From Cellulophaga algicola DSM 14237 (lineage in GTDB: Bacteria > Bacteroidota > Bacteroidia > Flavobacteriales > Flavobacteriaceae), in the NCBI RefSeq assembly GCF_000186265.1, contig NC_014934.1, positions 3,906,001 through 3,970,000 on the forward strand: a stretch of 64,000 nt of DNA. The letters are read 5' to 3'. The first letter of the stretch is position 1; each line of letters opens with the position of its first letter. Positions 42,874 through 53,008 of the stretch are shown one piece after another. The notes beneath the pieces are model-generated. The model worked only from the letters and a program-made list of their open reading frames with translations. It made no database searches and was not told the DNA's origin. Position numbers and translations under genes: made by a program.

Positions 42874-43521
42874 AGTTTTATAATAGGCGTCTAGCACCGT
42901 TTTTCTGCCTATTGTTTTAGTAATTATATCATCTTCCAAATTCCACCCTCTTGCAGGGGAATATTCACGACCATACCATATAATTTGTAAATGTAGATCG
43001 TTCCAAATTTCTTTTGGAAATAAACGTTTTGCGTCTTTTTCTGTCTGGACAACATTTTTTCCATTGGTAAAGCCCCAACGGTACATTAATCTATGAATAT
43101 GGGTATCTACAGGAAAAGCAGGGATTCCAAAAGCTTGTGATACTACAACGCTAGCTGTTTTGTGGCCAACAGCAGGAAATTCTTCTAGTAATTCTAATTC
43201 TTGAGGTACAATGCCATCATACTTATCGACTAACATTTGTGACAAACCATGAATCCCCTTAGATTTCATTGGAGACAAACCTACAGGTCTTATTATCGCT
43301 CTAATTTCATCAATCGTAAGTTTAATCATATCATACGGATTGTCTGCTTTTGCAAATAGTAAAGGCGTAATTTGATTGACTCTAACATCTGTGCATTGCG
43401 CAGACATTAGAACAGCAATTAGTAGTGTGTATGGATCTTTGTGGTCTAAAGGAACGGGTATCGTTGGGTATAATTCTTTAAGTTTTTGAATTGTGAATGC
43501 TACTTTTTCTGATTTTGTCAT
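42859..43521 (-). CDS. nth: endonuclease III (no iron-sulfur cysteines)
   Basis: This 220-residue base-excision repair DNA glycosylase/AP lyase acts on oxidised pyrimidines. The helix-hairpin-helix with catalytic Lys is EEFPAVGHKTASVVVSQAF (Lys near 121), and the catalytic Asp is in FPVDTHIHRLMYRWG (near 139). The C-terminus YGREYSPARGWNLEDD replaces the usual C-x6-C-x2-C-x5-C cluster motif, so no [4Fe-4S] cluster can form. Otherwise full length. The last codons lie in the terminator hairpin. Confidence 0.9.
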   Translation of the reverse strand: MTKSEKVAFTIQKLKELYPTIPVPLDHKDPYTLLIAVLMSAQCTDVRVNQITPLLFAKADNPYDMIKLTIDEIRAIIRPVGLSPMKSKGIHGLSQMLVDKYDGIVPQELELLEEFPAVGHKTASVVVSQAFGIPAFPVDTHIHRLMYRWGFTNGKNVVQTEKDAKRLFPKEIWNDLHLQIIWYGREYSPARGWNLEDDIITKTIGRKTVLDAYYKTKKSR

Positions 43522-43625
43522 TAGAATAGTTTATAAATCTATTTGCAAAGAGTATTTGTCTACACTAGCAATCAAGATTTCTAATTTGTATTTTTACAAA
43601 AAAACGAATTTAAATAAAAAAAGCT

Positions 43626-44087
43626 ATGCAAACTTTAAAAGTAGGAGATAAGGTTCCTTCATTTTCAGCAAAAGATCAAGATGGAAAAACAATTAATTTA
43701 TCTGATTACGCAGGGAAAAAACTAATTGTATTTTTTTATCCTAAAGCGAGCACGCCTGGTTGTACTGCAGAGGCTTGTAACTTACGTGATAATTACGCGG
43801 AATTACAATCTCAAGGATATGAATTATTAGGGGTAAGCGCCGATTCTGAAAAAAGACAAGCTAATTTTAAAAATAAATACGAATTTCCATTTCCATTATT
43901 GGCAGATGAAGACCATACAGTTATCAATGCTTTTGGAGTTTGGGGACCGAAAAAATTTATGGGAAGAGAATATGATGGTATTCATCGTATGACTTTTGTA
44001 ATAGATGAAAATGGTGCTGTATCAAATGTTGTTGAAAAAGTAAAAACAAAAGATCATGCAGCACAATTATTAGGTGAGTCGTCCTAA
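43626..44087 (+). CDS. bcp: thioredoxin-dependent thiol peroxidase (Bcp/PrxQ)
   Basis: The 153-residue peroxiredoxin reduces hydroperoxides. The peroxidatic Cys46 and resolving Cys51 are in ASTPGCTAEACNLRD, the atypical 2-Cys PrxQ arrangement. The last three residues and the stop (GAG TCG TCC TAA) come from the terminal repeat of the IS3 element inserted at 44075. Without the IS, the frame would end TTA GGA TAA, two residues shorter. The enzyme core is untouched and it should be active. Confidence 0.93.
   Translation: MQTLKVGDKVPSFSAKDQDGKTINLSDYAGKKLIVFFYPKASTPGCTAEACNLRDNYAELQSQGYELLGVSADSEKRQANFKNKYEFPFPLLADEDHTVINAFGVWGPKKFMGREYDGIHRMTFVIDENGAVSNVVEKVKTKDHAAQLLGESS
44072..44074. repeat. 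IS3 element target-site duplication (left copy)
   Basis: AGG here is repeated at 51406-51408, immediately outside both IS ends. Three base pairs is the usual IS3-family duplication. Confidence 0.75.
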
Positions 44088-44100
44088 AATAGGTTGACAG
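44075..44100 (+). repeat. IS3 left terminal inverted repeat
   Basis: It starts TGAGTCGTCCTAAAATAGG and pairs with the complement of 51380-51405 (TGTCCCGTCCTGAAATAAG) with six mismatches over 26 bp. It supplies the bcp stop codon. Confidence 0.75.
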
Positions 44101-44120
44101 TTTTTAAATAATTAATATTA

Positions 44121-44146
44121 AACCAGAGAAGCTAGCTTCTCTGGTT
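44121..44146. terminator. hairpin terminator at the IS3 left end
   Basis: AACCAGAGAAGC and GCTTCTCTGGTT flank TA and are followed by TTTTTT on the plus strand. It ends bcp transcription just inside the IS and overlaps the end of orfB. Confidence 0.82.
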
Positions 44147-44394
44147 TTTTGTTATGTACAAAGTTAGGTGTTTTATATTTTAGACTCAAGTGTGGTCTTT
44201 TGTTGTTATACGTTTTTATTGATTCTGCTATAAGCTTTTTCAACTCTTTGCCAGTGTTACATTTATAGATTAGGAATTCCCCTTTCAATATGCCGTTGAT
44301 TCGTTCTGCCAATGCATTTTGGTAGCAATCATAACCATCTGTCATTGACGGAGTCATATTGCTTAGCCTTAGTTCTTTTTGGTATATGCCGGAG

Positions 44395-44402
44395 CAATAC
44401 TG
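44395..44402. repeat. 8-bp target-site duplication of the Tn3-family transposon (left)
   Basis: CAATACTG is repeated exactly at 50413-50420. The repeat cannot be extended on either side. It is nearly palindromic (its complement is CAGTATTG). Confidence 0.85.
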
Positions 44403-44438
44403 GCCTTATCGGAAAAATGAGAGAAAATGTTCATTAGA
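44403..44438 (+). repeat. Tn3-family left terminal inverted repeat (36 bp)
   Basis: It begins GCCTTATCGGAAAAATGAGA and ends GAAAATGTTCATTAGA. It matches the complement of 50377-50412 with four mismatches (positions 5, 11, 18, 29). The inner GAAAAT...CATTAG resembles the inner half of Tn3-family repeats (GAAAA...TTAAG). The outer end is not the usual GGGG. Confidence 0.88.
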
Positions 44439-44456
44439 TAATAGTTCCATTTACAG

Positions 44457-45095
44457 CTAATCCCAGAGCTTTTCAAAACGCTTACTTACGACTCTTGTAT
44501 AATGAGCGGTATGTTTAGGGTCGCGATGTCCAAGGTAATCCTGTATTAATCGAAGGTCGTATCCTTTGTTGGCCAGATAGAAACCACAAGAGTGTCTCAA
44601 CGTATGTGGATGAACATTTTCCAATTTAGCTGCGGTAGCGATAACATTCACAATATAATTGATTGCCTGCCTTGTCAATGGCAGCCCCCTTTCGTTTACA
44701 AATAGCCAAGGCAGATTATCCTCTCTGGAATTCAGGTATCGTTTAATTGCGCGAAGTTCATCCCCGGAAATAGGATGCTCTACCGAAAGTCCGCTTTTGA
44801 GTCTATTTATCCAAATTCTTGATTCTTTTATGTTAACATCGGATTTTTTGATGGCTATCGCTTCACTAACCCTGAGACCATGCCGGTAAGTCATTAAAAG
44901 TAAAAGGTAGTTCCGTTTTGGATATCGGGTTTTTTTAGAAGCAGCTAAGAGTGATTTGATTTCGGCATCGCTTAAAAAGTCCTTTGGTCTTTCATGGGCA
45001 TTGGTAGTCCTTTTTTTACACTCTTTACATTTCGCCCGTTGGTCATGATTTTTGCATTGTGAATTAGCTCCGTGAAATATAGTCCAAAAAATCAA
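44457..45095 (-). CDS. tyrosine recombinase (TnpI-like resolvase)
   Basis: The 212 residues have the full tyrosine-recombinase set: Arg75 in YRHGLRVSE, Lys100 in RLKSG, His164 and Arg167 in HPHTLRH, His190 in YLGHRD, and Tyr199 in AHYTRV. It is short like FimB-type enzymes. The N-terminus carries three cysteines (C14, C23, C26; CKNHDQRAKCKECK). By position it should resolve cointegrates, as TnpI does in Tn4430. The start lies 2 bp from the putative crossover repeat. A shorter start is not available in frame. Confidence 0.87.
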   Translation of the reverse strand: MIFWTIFHGANSQCKNHDQRAKCKECKKRTTNAHERPKDFLSDAEIKSLLAASKKTRYPKRNYLLLLMTYRHGLRVSEAIAIKKSDVNIKESRIWINRLKSGLSVEHPISGDELRAIKRYLNSREDNLPWLFVNERGLPLTRQAINYIVNVIATAAKLENVHPHTLRHSCGFYLANKGYDLRLIQDYLGHRDPKHTAHYTRVVSKRFEKLWD

Positions 45096-45128
45096 TACTC
45101 TTTACATAATACGGTTTTTGTAAAGAGT
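45020..45128. promoter_or_regulatory. putative resolution (crossover) site of the recombinase
   Basis: The 10-mer ACTCTTTACA occurs at 45020-45029 and 45097-45106, and inverted (TGTAAAGAGT) at 45119-45128. The last two form a perfect inverted repeat around 12 bp (TAATACGGTTTT), the shape of a tyrosine-recombinase core site. The first is a direct accessory copy 77 bp away, inside the recombinase 5' coding region. The layout resembles the core plus accessory repeats of the Tn4430 site. Confidence 0.6.
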
Positions 45129-45170
45129 TCACAGTTTTCCTATATAATCTTAGCAACTATAAATGACTAA

Positions 45171-45201
45171 AAAAGCGAGACAATTTATTTGTCTCGCTTT
45201 A
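45171..45201 (-). terminator. terminator of the transposon cargo genes
   Basis: AAAGCGAGACAAAT-type arm and GTCTCGCTTT pair with a short AT loop. It lies 20 bp after the lipoprotein stop, separating the cargo from the recombinase. Confidence 0.8.
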
Positions 45202-45220
45202 ATATTTCAATTTAATAGAT

Positions 45221-45679
45221 TCAATTACACTCTACGGCTTCCATCAAATCCGATTCCTTGAAAATAAACTCAAGCCCGTAATCCCTTTGGCCTGTCAATT
45301 CTTCCGAATAGTTATCATATTCCTTTATGGAGAAAATTCTATCATTGAAATCTTTTCTGAAATACAAACACTTATCCGTTACAAATTTTACCGCTATCGA
45401 ATCACCTATACTATCTGTAACTGTTTTAAAACTAAATACTGCAGGTACTTCAGATACTGTAGTATTCGTGATGATTTCGCCTCCGTCTTCAATGGTGTAG
45501 TTTCTGATAAGTACATCAAGTCGATTATAGACTTCCATCGAAAGTTGAACGCCGGTCTCATTTTTATAGGTGTAATCTACTGTTTTCAATTCTTCAGTAT
45601 TGGTCGTACAACCCTGTAGAAAAGATAGCATACTACTTCCAAATATTAAAAAGAGCTTCCAAATTATTTTCTGTTCCAT
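45221..45679 (-). CDS. small lipoprotein, transposon cargo
   Basis: The 152 residues have a lipoprotein signal and lipobox LQGC (Cys24), followed by Thr/Asn/Glu. The mature part is acidic and strand-rich (VDYTYKNETGVQLSMEVYNR). No known family. Its start overlaps the end of the HExxH frame by 47 bp, which suggests translational coupling and a joint role. It is probably surface or periplasmic, as a partner, inhibitor or immunity-type factor of the HExxH protein (inference). Confidence 0.7.
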   Translation of the reverse strand: MEQKIIWKLFLIFGSSMLSFLQGCTTNTEELKTVDYTYKNETGVQLSMEVYNRLDVLIRNYTIEDGGEIITNTTVSEVPAVFSFKTVTDSIGDSIAVKFVTDKCLYFRKDFNDRIFSIKEYDNYSEELTGQRDYGLEFIFKESDLMEAVECN

Positions 45680-46397
45680 TTGTATGTTTGTTTTTAATGT
45701 TTATTCTCCAACCATTCCAGTTATCTTGTCCGTCTAAAGCATCTTCAATTTGTCTTATCGAGTATCCCGAGACCTGATCGACCCCTGAGATTCCATCAAT
45801 CATATCCTGAACAACTCCCGTATATTCATTGAAATATGGTGGTTGATAACCAGAATATACCATACGTGTCAACTCCCATTGAACACCTCTGGCCCAACTT
45901 TCCACAACGTAATCGTCCGCACCGTTATATCCGGATCTATCCATGTTCCAATGTGAAGCATGTGCCAATTCATGAATTATCGTGCCATATAAATCCATAG
46001 TATTTCTAGTGGGATTATAAATTCTTATGGCACTATTGATGCCGAAGAACCTACAAGCAGCACAATGACTGCCATTAGTATCACTATTTGTTTCAAAAAC
46101 TGCCCTTAACTTTAACTGGGTTTTTAAGACACCGTTATTAGGAGGCCTTCTCAATCCCTTTATATTATTGTAATAATAGTGATGTGCAGCTCTAAAAATC
46201 GTCGCAAAGAATTCTTGCTCGCCGTTTCTAATATCTATACTCCAACTACCTCTTTTTTTAGGCCCGCCGTAACCTGCGGTATTCAAAAAGCCATCCTTAC
46301 GCACTTCAAATTCATATCTCCCATTCAAAGGAATAATTTGCATCTCTTCTAAATCTTCCATCACATGAATAGTAACCATTTGCATCGGTAAAACCAT
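45633..46397 (-). pseudogene. HExxH metalloprotease-like protein, 3' part (frameshifted)
   Basis: This is the C-terminal part of a protein whose N-terminus lies in the frame 46312-47136. It has a zinc motif HELAH in IIHELAHASHWNMD and a Glu 20 residues after the second His (DDYVVESWARG), a gluzincin-like arrangement. Upstream of GRYEFEVRKDG the frame is not biologically plausible (MVLPMQMVTIHV), so the stated ATG at 46397 is not a real start. Family not recognised. Confidence 0.7.
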
Positions 46398-47136
46398 TAT
46401 GCGTGGTAAACCATCTACGGGCTTTTACACGAAGACCAGCAACTCCGACATAGGTACTTTTTTCATCATCCCATACTTTAATGGTTCCAGAGGGTCTCCA
46501 TTTACTTTTAGCAGATAGCGAGCTACTAATATCCCCCTCACTTAAATTTCCTGTTAATTTTAAAGATTCGTCAACTAGCATTTCAATTGTAACTTTTGAT
46601 GCAAACATACTTTTAGATGTTTCCGTAAAATCTCCATCTTCGTCAGGTATAAATAACTCTTCCAATATTTCATGAGGAACACCCGATGGGAGCTTTTTTC
46701 CTACAGGTAATGCAGCATATTGATAAGTAGGCTGTCCGGACGGTACATCGGGATCGCGATAAAAGTCACCATTCGCTTTAATTTCGTAATCTAAGGGTAT
46801 GTCATAAAGTGCAATAGTCGAATCCATTTTTAAAATAGATAGATGTTCTTCTGATTCGGGCTTAAACTTAACATATAAATGTGTTGCTTTAATAGCTCCA
46901 TTTTTGGAAGCAATACCTTTTCCTTCCAAGTTTTCCCATGCTTTTTTCATGCTAGAAACTGAATACGGATTTTCCATTTTAGACCCTAATTCTGTAACAG
47001 TTGAAGCACTAGCGATGTTATTATCTATCGCTTCGTTTATTTGAAAGGATTCAGCTTCTTCCTTTTCACAGGACAATAGTAAACCGAAGAATAATGTTAA
47101 GATGGAAATGCTTTTTAATGTTTTCAGATGTTTCAT
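46312..47136 (-). pseudogene. HExxH metalloprotease-like lipoprotein, 5' part (frameshifted)
   Basis: The 274-residue frame opens with a lipoprotein signal (LFFGLLLSC, Cys23), has a beta-rich middle, and contains a carboxypeptidase-like segment VGVAGLRVKARRWFTTHNG near residue 235. It ends YSFEWEI then TGA. The shift to YEFEVRKDGFLN in the other frame restores a continuous sequence, needing one base less or two more around 46315-46320. Together about 500 residues. Truly broken, or a sequencing error; the rest of the frame is intact. Confidence 0.72.
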
Positions 47137-47195
47137 TTTAGTTATCTCTAAAGTTAATAATATTTTGAGTGCTTTTTTATGATGCTAATATCCTA

Positions 47196-47203
47196 CAAAT
47201 ATA
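47196..47203 (-). promoter_or_regulatory. promoter -7 element of the transposon cargo
   Basis: On the minus strand it reads TATATTTG (TAnnTTTG), about 60 bp upstream of the lipoprotein ATG at 47136. It shows the cargo uses a Bacteroidota-type promoter. Confidence 0.45.
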
Positions 47204-47290
47204 GTAATACATTAACAAATATTTATGATAAATGTTATGTTTTGAAAATTTAATCTGTTTTAGATAACTTCGCTACGAGAATAAAGAAAT

Positions 47291-50200
47291 ATGCCCTTAA
47301 TAAGTTTACTGAAGGATGATGACATTAAGGAATTTGATTCCCCAACTAGACTTACGGACGAAGAAAGAAATGCTGTCTTTTCCGTTAACGGTATAGAAGG
47401 AATGGAAGGTATGTTCCGTAAGCCCATAATCAAGATCGGCTTTATACTTCAGCGTGGTTATTTTACGATGCAGAAAAAGTTTTTTGTGCCTCATCAGTTT
47501 CACACGGAAGATATCGATTTTGTAGCTAGATTATGTCCCAGGAAAAACAACTTCGATATTTCACTTTACAAGAAACCCACATATATAAAGCACAGGGCTA
47601 TCATACTCGGGTTATACGGCTACAGGTCTTTTGCCGAGGGAAAGAAACTTTTCGAGAACGAGGCCAATGAGCTTGTCAAGACCTCGTTGCGGCCCAAGGA
47701 ACTCTTCAATGCGCTAAACGAGTTTCTGTCAATTAAAAAGATAGAATGTCCCAAGTACTATGTTTTTGCAGGGACAATAGGACATGCCCTGAATTCGTTC
47801 GAGACAGACTTGATATCGGTGCTAAACCGGAATCTAAGTCCACAGCAAAAGGAAATTCTGAACGGGTTGATGGTGTTGTCCTCTCAGGAAGGAGGCATCG
47901 TTGGCAAAGACCCTTATTTGATTACTACTCTAAAAAAACCGGCACAGGCAAGCACCCCAAGAAAAATAAAGGAGAGTTTGTCGGATTTTGAGATAATAGC
48001 CGAACTTCATTCCGATTTTTCTAAAATGGTTGAAAAGACAGGTTTTTCAATGGAACTGCTAAATTATTATGCAGTTTGGATAATCAAGGCCAAGTATGTC
48101 CAATTTGAAAGTATCAGGGACATTGAAAAAAAACGGCTGTACCTAATTGCATTCATTCTCTATCAATACCGTATTCGTCAAGACCTTTTCGTGGACACGT
48201 TCTTACAGGCCATTCAAAAATATCTCAACGATGTGGACAATAGGGTCGTGCATAGTTTTATGGGCGATAATAAAAAAGAGGCATCGAATAAGAACAGGCT
48301 AAACAAATTAAGAGGTATTGTACTGTCCTCAAAAGGGCAATTGGATAAGGTACGTGGGATACTCTTCGATAATCAATATCAAGATTCCGAGAAATTATGC
48401 CTTCTTAGGAATCTGATGGGATATGACCAGGGGCAGTTCCATGATGAGCTTTTGTCGGAAATCACGAAGTTTGAGAATTCCGGTACGCTACAGCTCAAAG
48501 ATGACATGCGATTTCAGGAAATGGAAAAGGGGTACCGAAGAATACACAATAGGGTTGCCGGTATTCTAAGGATATTGGACTTTAATCCTGACACCTCGGA
48601 TTTGAATATACTGAACGCCGTTCAGCACTATCAAAAGACAAAAGGAAAGATAACCTCTAGGGCACCGATGGATTTCATATCCAATAGCGAGCAAAAACGG
48701 ATTTATGCCGATAACGGGAAATTTATCCCATCGATTTACAAGGTAATACTGTTCAAGGAAGTTGCGCATCATATCAAGGCAGGTTCACTTAATCTTAAAT
48801 ATTCCGATAAATACAAATCGATCGATGAATACCTTATTTCTAAGCAACGTTGGGAAACCAATAAAAAGGAACTTATGGAGAGGGCGAATATCGTCGACCT
48901 AGACAATGTTCATAAATTCCTTGAGGACTTAAAAGTTGACCTTCGAAATCAGTACATAAGCACAAACGAAAACATCCCGAACAACAAGCTCCTTAGGTTC
49001 TCTAGGGAAGGAAAACCTATTGTAAAAACGCCTAGAATAGAAGTTGTTGAACAGGGCACGATATCTAACCTTTTTGGCAACGATTCCTTCCTTCCGCTAA
49101 TCACGGTATTATCCGACATTCGGCATTCAACGGATTTTATAGACTCTTTTATGCATTATAGTAAAAGAAGCAATAAGGATGTTCCCCCTGACGCTATGAT
49201 TTATGCGGCCATTATAGCATTAGGTTGTAATATTGGAGTTAGGAAAATGGGGAGAATATCCAAGGGGCTAGGCGCTGACAAGCTTGAATATGCTGTCCGA
49301 TGGCATTTCAGCAAAGAGAACATAGATGATGCCAACCGAAGAATCGTCTCTTTAACCGATAAACTGGCGTTGCCATCCATATTCAAAAAGGACCAAGGAG
49401 CAAAGCATACTTCTAGCGATGGCCAAAAATTCAATGTTGGTGTACCTTCCTTACATGCCACTTATTCATACAAATATTTCGGATTTGGCAAAGGTGTCTC
49501 CGCATATAGTTTTATTGACGAAAAAAGTCGGTTGTTCTATAATACCGTGATTAGTGCCTCCGAAAGGGAAGCCGGCTATGTAATAGACGGTCTGATGCAC
49601 AATGACGGCATGGAAAGCAGTATACACTCGACCGACACACATGGGTATAGTGAAATCGTATTCGGGCTTTGTAATGCCATGGGTATATTTTTTGCCCCTA
49701 GGATAAAGAACTATAAAGACCAGCTGATATATACTTTTAAGGAAAATCCAAGAAAATACTACGAGAAAATGGATTTTAGGATTCTACCCTCCAAAAATAA
49801 ATATATCGATGAGAGCATACTTCTAGGCCAATGGGAGAATATTTTAAGGTTGTTGTGTTCCATTAAATTAAAGGAAACCAAATCTTCCGAAGTACTGAGA
49901 CGGCTGAGTTCCTATTCTAAACAACACCCCCTGTATAAATCCTTAAAAGAAATGGGCAGGATATTTAAAAGCATATTCATATTGCGCTATTTGGATGAAA
50001 GACCTTTGAGACAGGGCATTGAAAAACAATTAAACCGAATAGAGCAATCCCATCAATTTGCAAAAGCCATATTTTTCGGAAATAATCAGGAATTCAAGGT
50101 AGAAACCAAGGAAGAGCAGGAAATTGCCGTTGGTTGTAGGCATTTGATTCAGAATGCAATCGTGTTATGGAACTACCTGTTCATTTCAGAGAAACTTTCT

Positions 50201-50371
50201 GAAATCATAGAAGAAGATGAATATAAGAAAATATTGAATGCGTTTTCGAATAGTTCCATTATGACGTGGCAGCATATAAATCTACACGGCGAATACGATT
50301 TTGAGATTGCGAAAGCGACTACTTTATTCGATTTAGAGAAAATCCTATCGATGGATCTGAATACGGCTTAA
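47291..50371 (+). CDS. tnpA: Tn3-family transposase (TnpA)
   Basis: The 1026-residue transposase has an N-terminal DUF4158-like region and a C-terminal DDE catalytic core. Catalytic Asp is in HTSSDGQKF (near 710), the second Asp in HSTDTHGYSE (near 781), and Glu in QLNRIEQSHQF (near 917), the family pattern. AAIIALGCNIGVRKMG also matches. Its stop is 5 bp before the right terminal repeat, the typical Tn3 layout. Length is normal. There is no truncation, so the element may be mobile. Confidence 0.93.
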   Translation: MPLISLLKDDDIKEFDSPTRLTDEERNAVFSVNGIEGMEGMFRKPIIKIGFILQRGYFTMQKKFFVPHQFHTEDIDFVARLCPRKNNFDISLYKKPTYIKHRAIILGLYGYRSFAEGKKLFENEANELVKTSLRPKELFNALNEFLSIKKIECPKYYVFAGTIGHALNSFETDLISVLNRNLSPQQKEILNGLMVLSSQEGGIVGKDPYLITTLKKPAQASTPRKIKESLSDFEIIAELHSDFSKMVEKTGFSMELLNYYAVWIIKAKYVQFESIRDIEKKRLYLIAFILYQYRIRQDLFVDTFLQAIQKYLNDVDNRVVHSFMGDNKKEASNKNRLNKLRGIVLSSKGQLDKVRGILFDNQYQDSEKLCLLRNLMGYDQGQFHDELLSEITKFENSGTLQLKDDMRFQEMEKGYRRIHNRVAGILRILDFNPDTSDLNILNAVQHYQKTKGKITSRAPMDFISNSEQKRIYADNGKFIPSIYKVILFKEVAHHIKAGSLNLKYSDKYKSIDEYLISKQRWETNKKELMERANIVDLDNVHKFLEDLKVDLRNQYISTNENIPNNKLLRFSREGKPIVKTPRIEVVEQGTISNLFGNDSFLPLITVLSDIRHSTDFIDSFMHYSKRSNKDVPPDAMIYAAIIALGCNIGVRKMGRISKGLGADKLEYAVRWHFSKENIDDANRRIVSLTDKLALPSIFKKDQGAKHTSSDGQKFNVGVPSLHATYSYKYFGFGKGVSAYSFIDEKSRLFYNTVISASEREAGYVIDGLMHNDGMESSIHSTDTHGYSEIVFGLCNAMGIFFAPRIKNYKDQLIYTFKENPRKYYEKMDFRILPSKNKYIDESILLGQWENILRLLCSIKLKETKSSEVLRRLSSYSKQHPLYKSLKEMGRIFKSIFILRYLDERPLRQGIEKQLNRIEQSHQFAKAIFFGNNQEFKVETKEEQEIAVGCRHLIQNAIVLWNYLFISEKLSEIIEEDEYKKILNAFSNSSIMTWQHINLHGEYDFEIAKATTLFDLEKILSMDLNTA

Positions 50372-50376
50372 ATTTC

Positions 50377-50412
50377 TCTAATGGACATTTTCTCCCATTT
50401 TACCGATGAGGC
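50377..50412 (-). repeat. Tn3-family right terminal inverted repeat (36 bp)
   Basis: Reading inward on the minus strand: GCCTCATCGGTAAAATGGGA, then GAAAATGTCCATTAGA. Four mismatches from the left repeat at 44403-44438. Confidence 0.88.
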
Positions 50413-50420
50413 CAATACTG
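50413..50420. repeat. 8-bp target-site duplication (right copy)
   Basis: CAATACTG, identical to 44395-44402. The orfB codons CAG TAT TG(C) run through it. Confidence 0.85.
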
Positions 50421-50951
50421 CAATCCTCTATCGGAATGATGAATTAGATCTTTACTTGTCAATCTATTGTTTTTAGCCATTCTTACTGCTTTTACCACAT
50501 TTTCGGCACTCATATCATCACTAAGGTGATATCCCATTATTTTTCTACTATAGGCATCGGTTACCAAGGATAGATAATGTGTCCGCTCTCTACTTTTGAT
50601 ATATGTAATGTCACTGACGAAGAACTCTTCTGGTCTGGAAACTTTGATTTCTTTCATCAGATTAGGATGTTTTCTAAGCCAATGTTTAGAGTTTGTTGTC
50701 TTGGTGTAATTCTTCCTTGGCCTTATCAGCATCGATTCCGAGCGCAAATATCCAAACAGGGCATCTCTTCCTATTTTTAAATTGTGCTTTGCGAATTCTT
50801 CCTTTAACAGGTAATACAGCTTTCGTGTACCGAGCCGGGGCATATCCTTGCGAACACCTTCAACCAAGTTCTTTACTTTTATAAACTCCTGTTCTCTTTT
50901 TATAATCCGTTTTTCTGCTTGATAGACCGCTTGTCTACTTACCCCAAACAA
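50413..50951 (-). pseudogene. IS3 transposase orfB, N-terminal part
   Basis: It carries HTH_21-like and rve integrase core segments: FVSDITYIKSRE (Asp114), YLSLVTDAYSRKIMGYH, and IHHSDRGLQY (Asp174). The frame then enters the transposon after a TG base pair and stops within a few codons. It continues in frame with 44118-44402 after removal of the inner element. The true translation probably begins by -1 slippage in orfA rather than at this ATG. Confidence 0.9.
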
Positions 50952-50971
50952 TCGACAACAACGAGATAAAC

Positions 50972-51364
50972 TTAATCGTTGTTCTTGTCGGATGCGCTGG
51001 ATTGATTGGGCGAATGCTTTTTTCTGATAGCGGTACCATACTGTTTATCGGAGATGTCAATCATAGTATTGAGAATTTTGTTCCTGAGTTTTTCATCGGA
51101 AAGCTCTCTCTCCAAGCGTTTGATTTTTTGGGCAGGTGTTTCTTTTGATTTTGGCATTTGATGGCGTATTGGTTTAGTCCAATCTAATGTACCATGTTTT
51201 CTCAACCAAACCAAAACAGTACTTCTACCTTGAATACCATAAGCCTTTTGCGCCTGCTTATAAGTCATTTCGCCTTTTTCAACCTGATGGACAACACTTA
51301 ATTTAAAGCCCAAATTATAATCGCGTTGGGTACGCTTGTCTACCGTAATAATTGAATGTTTCAT
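50972..51364 (-). CDS. IS3 transposase orfA (helix-turn-helix protein)
   Basis: The 130 residues have an N-terminal HTH (YNLGFKLSVVHQVEKGEM, AYGIQGRSTVLVWLRKHG) and a C-terminal leucine-zipper-like helix (KETPAQKIKRLERELSDE), the standard IS3 OrfA. Near its end the heptamer A AAA AAG (51023-51017) allows a -1 shift into orfB. OrfA is intact, but the full OrfAB cannot be made because orfB is split. Confidence 0.9.
   Translation of the reverse strand: MKHSIITVDKRTQRDYNLGFKLSVVHQVEKGEMTYKQAQKAYGIQGRSTVLVWLRKHGTLDWTKPIRHQMPKSKETPAQKIKRLERELSDEKLRNKILNTMIDISDKQYGTAIRKKHSPNQSSASDKNND
51017..51023 (-). promoter_or_regulatory. IS3 -1 frameshift heptamer
   Basis: On the minus strand it reads AAAAAAG, following ATC AG in the orfA frame. 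The -1 frame continues KKAFAQSIQRIRQEQ into orfB, the normal IS150-group fusion signal. Confidence 0.75.
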
Positions 51365-51379
51365 AAATAAGTCGATTTT

Positions 51380-51405
51380 GTGTCAACTTATTTCAGGACG
51401 GGACA
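51380..51405 (-). repeat. IS3 right terminal inverted repeat
   Basis: Reading inward it begins TGTCCCGTCCTGAAATAAG. The AGG duplication follows at 51406-51408. Confidence 0.75.
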
Positions 51406-51414
51406 AGGATAAAA

Positions 51415-51448
51415 AATAAGCCCTAAATCAAATGATTTAGGGCTTATT
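51415..51448. terminator. bidirectional terminator, originally between bcp and the 489-aa gene
   Basis: AATAAGCCCTAAATCA and its complement form a perfect 16-bp stem with a 2-nt loop, between the IS end and the stop of the minus-strand gene at 51452. Before the IS insertion it lay directly behind bcp. Confidence 0.85.
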
Positions 51449-51451
51449 ACT

Positions 51452-52921
51452 TTAAGATGATGTTTCATCTTTATTTTCAATCTCTATTTTTTTTCGCTTG
51501 AACAAACTTCTTTTTTTAATAATTTCTGAAATACCTTCAGGCAATACATCTTCCCAACCTTCATCATTATTAATAATTTTCTTTAATACATCTCTAGAAA
51601 ATATATGTAGTACATCAGGGTCGTAATCAATAATATCCATTACTTTGCCATTGTATTTAAAGAACTTGTAAAGTTCTTTCATACGCGGATGTACCTTAAC
51701 ATTATTACTGGTCATAATTTGTCCAGTCTCTTCATTTTTCATTGGGTATAAGTATACCTTCAAATCTTTAAAGAATAATTTACCAAAAGCTTCTAAAATA
51801 CCACCACTTAAATGACGGTAATATTTTTCATCAAAAATATCAACTAGGTTATTTACACCCATTGTTAAACCAATTTTTGCTTTCGTATAATTATTAAAAT
51901 ATTCTACTAACTTGAAATACTCTTGAAATTTAGAAATCATTACGGTATGCCCAAGGGAACATAAAAGTTCTGCCCTGTCCATAAAATCTTGTTCATCTAT
52001 CTCTCCAGAGGCTTTTAAGTTAGAAAGGGTAATTTCGAAAATTACGATCGTATTTTCTTCTTCAACGCTAGTCTCTCTTATAAATATATCGTGAGACTTT
52101 TCTAGCATGTCCATATTTACTTTGGTCACAGGTCTAAAGCTACCACGTAAGGCAAGAATATTTTTCTTATATAAAACAGCTGCTGGTAATAAGTTGTTCC
52201 CGTCAGGACCGAACATTACCGCATCGGTCATGTTATTTTTAATCAGCTGTAAACTCATTAAACGGTTATCTACAGCCTTAAAGTTAGGACCAGAAAAGTT
52301 AATCATATCAACTTCTAATGTATCCTTATCTAAATGGTCGTATAAATATTTAAGAATTTTACGAGGTTGGTCGTGTTTGTAAAAAGCACCGTAAATAAGA
52401 TTAACTCCTAGAATACCAAGTGTTTCTTGTTGCAAACGCGCCTCATTTTGTTTAAAACGAACATGAATTATTATTTCATCATATTCTTTTTGAGTAGGGT
52501 CTAACTGATATCTTATCCCTAACCAGCCGTGCCCTTTATATCTTTTAGAGAAGTCAATAGTGGCTACTGTGTTTGCATAAGAGAAAAATAAACGTTCTGG
52601 GTGTTTTTTTCTACTAATACGATCTTCCATGTTCATCATCTCGTGAGTCAACATTTTTTTCAATCGTGATTGCGTAACGTAACGTCCGTCTTCTTCTATG
52701 CCGTAAATAGCATCACTAAAATCTTTATCATACGCACTCATTGCTTTTGCAATTGTACCAGAGGCACCGCCAGATCTAAAAAAATGTCCAGACGTTTCTT
52801 GACCAGCACCAATTTCTGAAAATGTTCCGTAAATATCTGGATTCAGATTTATACGAAGCGTTTTAGATTTTATTGAGGGGATATTTTCAAATGCAGTATC
52901 CTTTCTTAAAACAGAAGCCAT
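51452..52921 (-). CDS. conserved Bacteroidota protein of unknown function
   Basis: The 489 residues are soluble, with no signal peptide. Conserved-looking stretches are FSEIGAGQETSGHFFRSGGASGT near residue 35, and YLYPMKNEETGQI and PDVLHIFSRDVLKKI near the end. Homologues in Flavobacteriaceae have at times been called nicotinate-nucleotide adenylyltransferase, but I see no HxGH-type motif supporting that. A role cannot be assigned. Divergent from the MBL hydrolase with a shared 66-87 bp promoter region. Confidence 0.72.
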   Translation of the reverse strand: MASVLRKDTAFENIPSIKSKTLRINLNPDIYGTFSEIGAGQETSGHFFRSGGASGTIAKAMSAYDKDFSDAIYGIEEDGRYVTQSRLKKMLTHEMMNMEDRISRKKHPERLFFSYANTVATIDFSKRYKGHGWLGIRYQLDPTQKEYDEIIIHVRFKQNEARLQQETLGILGVNLIYGAFYKHDQPRKILKYLYDHLDKDTLEVDMINFSGPNFKAVDNRLMSLQLIKNNMTDAVMFGPDGNNLLPAAVLYKKNILALRGSFRPVTKVNMDMLEKSHDIFIRETSVEEENTIVIFEITLSNLKASGEIDEQDFMDRAELLCSLGHTVMISKFQEYFKLVEYFNNYTKAKIGLTMGVNNLVDIFDEKYYRHLSGGILEAFGKLFFKDLKVYLYPMKNEETGQIMTSNNVKVHPRMKELYKFFKYNGKVMDIIDYDPDVLHIFSRDVLKKIINNDEGWEDVLPEGISEIIKKRSLFKRKKIEIENKDETSS

Positions 52922-52940
52922 GTAATTTATTTGTTTACAG

Positions 52941-52948
52941 CAAAGTTA
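52941..52948 (-). promoter_or_regulatory. -7 element of the 489-aa gene
   Basis: On the minus strand it reads TAACTTTG (TAnnTTTG), 20 bp before the ATG at 52921. Confidence 0.5.
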
Positions 52949-53008
52949 ACAAGATTGGGCAATCTAATAAATAAATAAGTTATAAATTTGGATAAAATAG
53001 ACAATCAG

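Follow-up and report, generated by a model that had tools for sequence, protein, structure and literature searches.

We consider it very probable, on the arrangement of the sequence, that an insertion sequence (IS) of a terminator-targeting IS3-family lineage entered the interval between bcp and its convergent neighbor in Cellulophaga algicola DSM 14237 (NC_014934.1), and that a Tn3-family transposon subsequently interrupted its orfB gene. Coordinates are positions in the 64,000-nt stretch analyzed (hereafter the window). The original prediction had described the nested pair, which is correct and, in itself, ordinary; it was incomplete, as the IS seems to have hit the end of bcp incidentally, while aiming at the terminator between that gene and the convergent one. 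The IS ends at 44075 (TGAGTCGTCCTA) and 51405 (CAGGACGGGACA) and is flanked on both sides by AGG (44072..44074 and 51406..51408), the 3-bp target duplication already noted at these two positions and now confirmed. At 51420..51443, 14 nt from the IS end, stands the G+C core of the target hairpin (extended stem ~51416-51447), with a DNA fold of -13.8 kcal/mol and a z score of -7.1. Presumably, this hairpin terminates transcription of the minus-strand gene and also terminated that of bcp until the IS inserted.

Most relatives of the IS lie at a set distance from terminator-like hairpins

We gathered 97 records, comprising 80 named relatives (the best 80 of 499 confirmed relatives), 10 loci from other genera, six other copies from the same genome, and the window. 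Of these, 83 represented distinct insertions with a recognizable transposase-proximal end and flank (68 named, 8 from other genera, and 7 own copies). Records were left out when they had too little sequence 5' of the match (L068, L072, L076, L084, and L105), no recognizable 5' end (L053, L059, and L085), or no flank (L087, L094, L096, and L102), or when they duplicated another site (L018 and L019, which stand for the sites of L049 and L048); L016 was likewise a repeat of an own copy. In the DNA search of other genera, at most two candidates were scored per genome, and matches that were weak or had a single end, among them L026, were excluded. The 80 named loci share 54-89% orfB identity and come from Bacteroidota, Gammaproteobacteria, Thalassospira, and a Desulfobulbaceae metagenome-assembled genome; the hosts of the relatives are many bacteria, mostly marine.

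We found that the 46 nt on the transposase-proximal side folded at -8 kcal/mol or lower in 77 of the 83 sites (mean -18.1), as compared to 14 of 71 opposite flanks (mean -5.3) and 656 of 2490 random windows from the same loci (mean -5.9). A strong hairpin located 8-20 nt away was present at 65/83 sites versus 14/3320 random windows (Fisher p ~4e-106, a value that takes the sites as independent, while they are merely distinct and come from related elements). Among the 73 sites with a hairpin score of at least 16, the distance peaked at 14 nt (30 sites), 15 nt (12), and 17 nt (11). The insertion point lay mostly 13-18 nt outside the stem base, and the stem sequence varied between sites. The standard deviation of the stem-to-IS distance was 1.6 when measured from the loop centre and 2.2 from the G+C stem base, with a few stems mis-picked, including that of the window; for this reason, we assign the distance to neither of these reference points.

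The sequence next to the IS was position-locked as well: a C/G followed by a T-run occupied -17 to -9, and T was found at -13 and -14 in 90% of the 83 sites. At least five T in 8 nt were present at 71 of 78 hairpin-side sites; the strength of T-runs versus A-runs failed to separate the two sides (71/78 versus 69/78 with at least five). An exact 3-bp duplication was kept at 54 of the 83 sites, 52 of which folded at -8 kcal/mol or lower, as did 25 of the remaining 29. Most relatives in other genera, at ~71-83% DNA identity, followed the same hairpin rule. Three non-autonomous, internally deleted derivatives in other genera, L028 (322 bp), L030 (341 bp), and L041 (301 bp), also sit behind terminator-like hairpins. 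As read from these flanks, the proposed terminator targeting by the IS lineage is robust in the present data, and the orientation of the IS is fixed, with its transposase-proximal end facing the predicted hairpin.

Copies in the same genome follow the same layout

IS copies were sought across one genome contig of 4.89 Mb, which contained seven copies of the left 328 bp of the IS, six of them intact at 1313 bp. IS3-family elements have TG...CA terminal repeats, generate short (3-5 bp) duplications, and carry overlapping orfA and orfB joined by a -1 frameshift at an A6G-type run. All seven own copies had TG...CA termini and a 3-bp duplication (AGG, AAG, TAT, AGT, TAA, TTT, and AAA). The orfB frame is open upstream into orfA, where an AAAAAAG run is a candidate frameshift site. 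The IS3-family assignment made in the original prediction was borne out by profile searches, as OrfB carries an rve/DDE integrase core (PF00665, matched on the fragment in the window) and the six intact copies scored above the NF033516 cut-off.

In 7/7 own copies a hairpin stands 14-16 nt from the transposase-proximal end in identical orientation, and the right flank reads IS end, 3-bp duplication, A-run, stem, loop, stem, and T-run. Six of the seven hairpins resemble ordinary textbook terminators. The exception is L002 (G000:C1:3843825-3844152), an intact IS that breaks into a GNAT-type acetyltransferase gene at its last codons. Its hairpin lies antisense in the coding sequence at a similar distance, with standard pairs at 12 of 14 stem positions (by eye), a DNA fold of -5.5 kcal/mol, and a z score of -3.6.

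Congeners have the hairpin independently of the IS

The original prediction had proposed looking for related genomes with an empty bcp site. Of 17 congener bcp loci, 16 were readable, and none of these had an IS within ~80 nt past the stop codon. The stop codon of L127 and L129, which are among the three closest congeners, is followed by the terminator stem of the window with a different loop. Because these loci have the stem without the IS, the presumed terminator predates the IS at bcp. At the fabH-like loci, all 17 congeners lacked an IS in the 100 nt examined, and 16 had a hairpin (by eye). The hpf-like loci were readable in 9 of 20 cases, the own one included; L220-L222, the three closest, keep a closely similar stem with no insertion. 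At three loci (bcp, fabH-like, and hpf-like), the predicted hairpin thus occurs in congeners without the IS.

Neighboring genes and the hairpin in the IS tail

Gene context was obtained with a simple open reading frame (ORF) finder for the 83 sites, 82 of which had an ORF on the hairpin side. At 65 of these 82, the nearest such ORF was directed toward the IS. Fifty of the 83 sites lay between convergent ORFs, and 12 were without an ORF or readable sequence on the far side. In the window, the hairpin-side gene (51452..52921, minus strand) encodes 489 amino acids, is co-oriented with the IS transposase, and reads toward the terminator and the IS; its product had no match in Pfam or NCBIfam.

The opposite end of the IS contains a hairpin of its own. 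The IS tail folded at -15 kcal/mol or lower in 65 of 76 cases versus 98 of 365 internal windows. Seven of the eight tails inspected showed a strong hairpin with an A-rich run on the transposase side, while L122 was without a strong hairpin. In the window, this hairpin lies at 44120..44147, near the transposase-distal end and 46-73 nt into the IS from the bcp side; its A-run, on the transposase side, constitutes a T-run for transcription arriving from bcp. Because the A-rich run flanks the tail hairpin on the transposase side, inward transcripts would meet a hairpin followed by a T-run. We infer that the tail hairpin replaces the terminator for bcp.

Proposed mechanism and alternative explanations

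We give roughly even chances to a broader proposal, in which a widely distributed IS3-family branch would target intrinsic-terminator hairpins structurally, whatever their sequence, with the tail hairpin substituting for the displaced terminator and the insertion thus being neutral for both neighbors. In the explanation that we favor, terminator-targeted and transcriptionally quiet insertion would come about probably through recognition of the hairpin. An OrfAB transpososome holding the joined IS ends would recognize it, with folded DNA as its most likely form, and cut at a set distance beyond it, while the unequal terminal repeats of the IS would dictate the orientation. The hairpin-side gene would retain its own terminator, which would also protect the transposase gene from read-through, and the far-side gene would receive the IS-tail hairpin as a substitute. 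Insertion past a terminator is likely to do the host little harm.

The site could instead be marked by transcription, with a terminating or paused RNA polymerase, or an RNA hairpin with its hybrid, directing the IS into the DNA just ahead. We regard this explanation as possible, though tentative. The expected release point, at the end of the T-run, would fall a few bases short of the duplication, T-runs are present at most sites, and the nearest ORF is in most cases co-oriented. Moreover, the stems of L050 and L052 need G-U pairs, which are better tolerated in RNA than in DNA. On the other hand, L002 is antisense within a coding sequence and the T-runs are poor at L017, L057, L104, L110, and L125, both of which speak for DNA as what is sensed; in addition, 17 of the 82 nearest ORFs point the opposite way. 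Recognition of a linear sequence, GGC and then a T-run, in place of a hairpin would account for the locked C/G and T positions, but it is unlikely. The G(N)CTTTT motif was in place at 56/83 sites, and 55 of these 56 folded at -12 kcal/mol or lower, versus 127 of 1161 occurrences of the motif elsewhere in the flanks. Thus, the motif without a strong hairpin is frequent in the flanks and practically unused, while 21 of the 27 sites that lack the motif still fold at -8 kcal/mol or lower. Because the motif without a pairing arm is hardly used, the second arm matters.

The two remaining explanations dispense with a targeted hairpin. If insertion were random and survivors were found only in harmless 3' intergenic gaps, where terminators are common, the many sites between convergent ORFs would be expected. 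However, selection would neither fix the distance, which is exactly 14 nt at 30 of the 73 scored sites, nor leave the opposite flank at background, and we hold this explanation to be contradicted by the data and very improbable. That the hairpin is part of the element and travels along with it could explain its presence at 77/83 sites, but there is hardly any chance that this is the case: the stem sequences vary between sites, the target duplication, where kept, stands between the hairpin and the IS, and the idea is refuted at the three loci where congeners have the hairpin without the IS.

Several observations weigh against structural targeting of terminators, or limit its reach. That the hairpins terminate transcription is itself something we infer from their sequence. 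Six of the 83 sites had no clear hairpin (L067, L077, L079, L080, L101, and L111), and two of these, L079 and L101, group together in the tree, in which the root is one doubtful outgroup; a loss or change of target specificity is possible in this pair. The exact 3-bp duplication was found in just 54 of the 83 sites, even though 23 of the 29 others had a readable far end. Insertion can also do damage, as in L002, where the IS breaks the end of a GNAT-type gene. L144 and L151-L153, other IS3-family elements in this genome, were dropped as negative controls because their ends could not be resolved. Outside the 83 sites, we chose 11 plasmid relatives by eye from 60 listed (42-56% orfB identity). 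L190, L191, L192, and L195 had a hairpin, and L199 had a weak, T-rich one. The other six, with 42-51% orfB identity, were off-rule: L193, L196, and L200 had no hairpin, L197 and L198 had a half or split stem, and L194 could not be resolved. Because of the hairpin-less sites and the off-rule plasmid relatives, the specificity has its best support in a single branch, outside of which it may be weaker or lost.

Layout and history of the nested pair

The bcp gene (43626..44087, plus strand), which encodes a thioredoxin-dependent peroxiredoxin, is not truncated; its terminal codons now come from the IS end, so that the protein tail reads ...LLGESS* instead of ...LLG*. As had been predicted, removal of the IS gives a bcp end of TTA GGA TAA, and the congeners L127 and L129 end in TTA GCT TAA. 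The transposase-distal part of the IS (44075..44402, minus strand) carries the 3' portion of orfB (44118-44402), with a CAATACTG copy at 44395-44402. The transposase-proximal part (50413..51405, minus strand) begins with the second CAATACTG copy (50413-50420) and contains the 5' part of orfB, which extends to 50951, and orfA (50972-51364).

Between the two parts lies the Tn3-family transposon (44403..50412), which was reported earlier as a 6010-bp insert in the IS transposase gene. We confirmed this insertion and found it to be the only copy in the genome. An intact IS copy inspected at the insertion point reads CCGGAGCAATACTGCAATCC, an empty site in which CAATACTG is present once. The two halves of the IS in the window differed from the six intact copies at 0, 0, 0, 0, 1, and 13 positions; the left part showed no difference from five of them and one difference from the sixth. 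Excision of the transposon together with one CAATACTG restores orfB as proposed, since the intact orfB of L005 has 271 codons plus a stop, which make 816 nt, or 539 + 277. Because the six intact copies carry the empty, uninterrupted site of the transposon, the IS came first and the transposon second, in agreement with the predicted order.

The claim about CAATACTG itself held in part: it occurs once at the empty site, but an 8-bp length of the transposon duplication was not established. Tn3-family elements have terminal inverted repeats of ~38 bp, a 5-bp target duplication, and a site-specific resolution system. In the terminal inverted repeats of this transposon, 27 of 30 positions compared at the ends agree, and their length is ~37 by eye. 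The longest direct repeat at the transposon ends is the 8-bp CAATACTG, the outer bases of which match the terminal GGCC. The duplication would measure 8 bp if the ends are GCC..GGC, 6 bp if they are GGCC..GGCC, and 5 bp if they are offset by one base. This overlap between CAATACTG and the terminal GGCC limits the true duplication to at most 8 bp. Of the seven relatives examined, the duplication was readable only in L189 (Sulfitobacter plasmid pDFL14-10), where, by eye, the ends are GGGTCT and the duplication is the 5-bp ATCTA.

The family assignment of the transposon was also supported by profile searches. The apparently intact tnpA (47291..50371, plus strand) encodes a 1026-amino acid Tn3-family transposase with a Tn3 DDE domain (PF01526, E = 2e-118; NF033527, 613 bits versus a cut-off of 500). 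At 1e-100, TnpA matched only itself among 397 family genomes; at 1e-20, partial matches with 23-33% identity were found in 7 of 394 other genomes of the phylum. The best plasmid relatives among the matches listed had ~38% identity. A tyrosine recombinase gene (44457..45095, minus strand; PF00589) presumably encodes the resolvase, and its top NCBIfam model was a tyrosine-type DNA invertase with a score under the cut-off. Beside this gene, ACTCTTTACA occurs three times, as an inverted pair within ACTCTTTACATAA-N6-TTTTGTAAAGAGT (45097..45128), a candidate resolution core site, and as a third copy at 45020-45030. Together, these repeats are a candidate for the resolution site of the Tn3-family element.

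The cargo (45221..47136, minus strand) consists of a 152-amino acid ORF and two overlapping frames of 254 and 274 amino acids (45633-47136), the first with a lipoprotein-like start and the second with an HExxH motif (HELAH); nothing in Pfam or PHROGs matched it. Frames matching this cargo in other genomes span 522-661 amino acids, except for one 278-amino acid frame with a stop. Because most matching frames elsewhere have this length, the two overlapping frames probably represent a single lipoprotein gene that is frame-shifted and encodes an HExxH motif.

Significance and comparison with known systems

Terminator targeting would explain how ISs come to lie at gene ends such as that of bcp without destroying the gene, and it would make their insertion sites predictable. 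If true, the lineage would provide a DDE transposase whose target is generic, structure-like, and found across most bacterial genomes. It would also be an example from nature of safe-harbor integration and a testable system for the reading of DNA secondary structure or transcription termination by a transposase. We found no earlier report of an IS that targets intrinsic terminators in the open-licence literature, which is weak evidence, as the main reviews were not covered; reviews may mention terminator-like IS targets.

Among the 60 listed plasmid records, the closest label with an IS name was ISSen1, which is IS3-like with 49% orfB identity. In contrast to the lineage described here, the ISSen1-labelled L197 and its relative L198 have no more than a half or split stem where a hairpin would be expected. 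Within the IS3 family, IS1397, ISKpn1, and ISPsy8 target palindromic REP (repetitive extragenic palindromic) sequences, and this specificity is ascribed to the transposase (PMC1525189). These elements share with the present lineage the family, a 3-bp duplication (ISPsy8), a palindromic target, and a fixed relation of element to target. However, they enter the REP palindromes themselves, ISPsy8 at a symmetry axis, while in the present lineage the insertion lies outside the hairpin, which is terminator-like and differs in sequence from site to site.

A set distance and orientation relative to a transcription signal is also known from TnGBS, ISLre2, and ISKra4, which have Mutator-like DDE transposases and target a position 15-17 bp upstream of sigma-A promoters; their orientation too is ascribed to unequal ends (PMC3942029). 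They differ from the present lineage in transposase family and in using a promoter as the target.

In target choice, the closest likeness is to group IIC introns, which insert downstream of Rho-independent terminators (PMC4424553 and PMC3522654). In contrast to the IS lineage, these introns are retroelements that use ribozyme-exon pairing and have no DDE transposase. They are also not known to generate a target duplication. We detected no reverse transcriptase domain in the nine proteins scanned with Pfam and NCBIfam, and no Rfam match in 43000-53000. Together, the lineage is an IS3-family element whose target differs from that of its REP-targeting kin; it is similar to group IIC introns in target choice but is not an intron.

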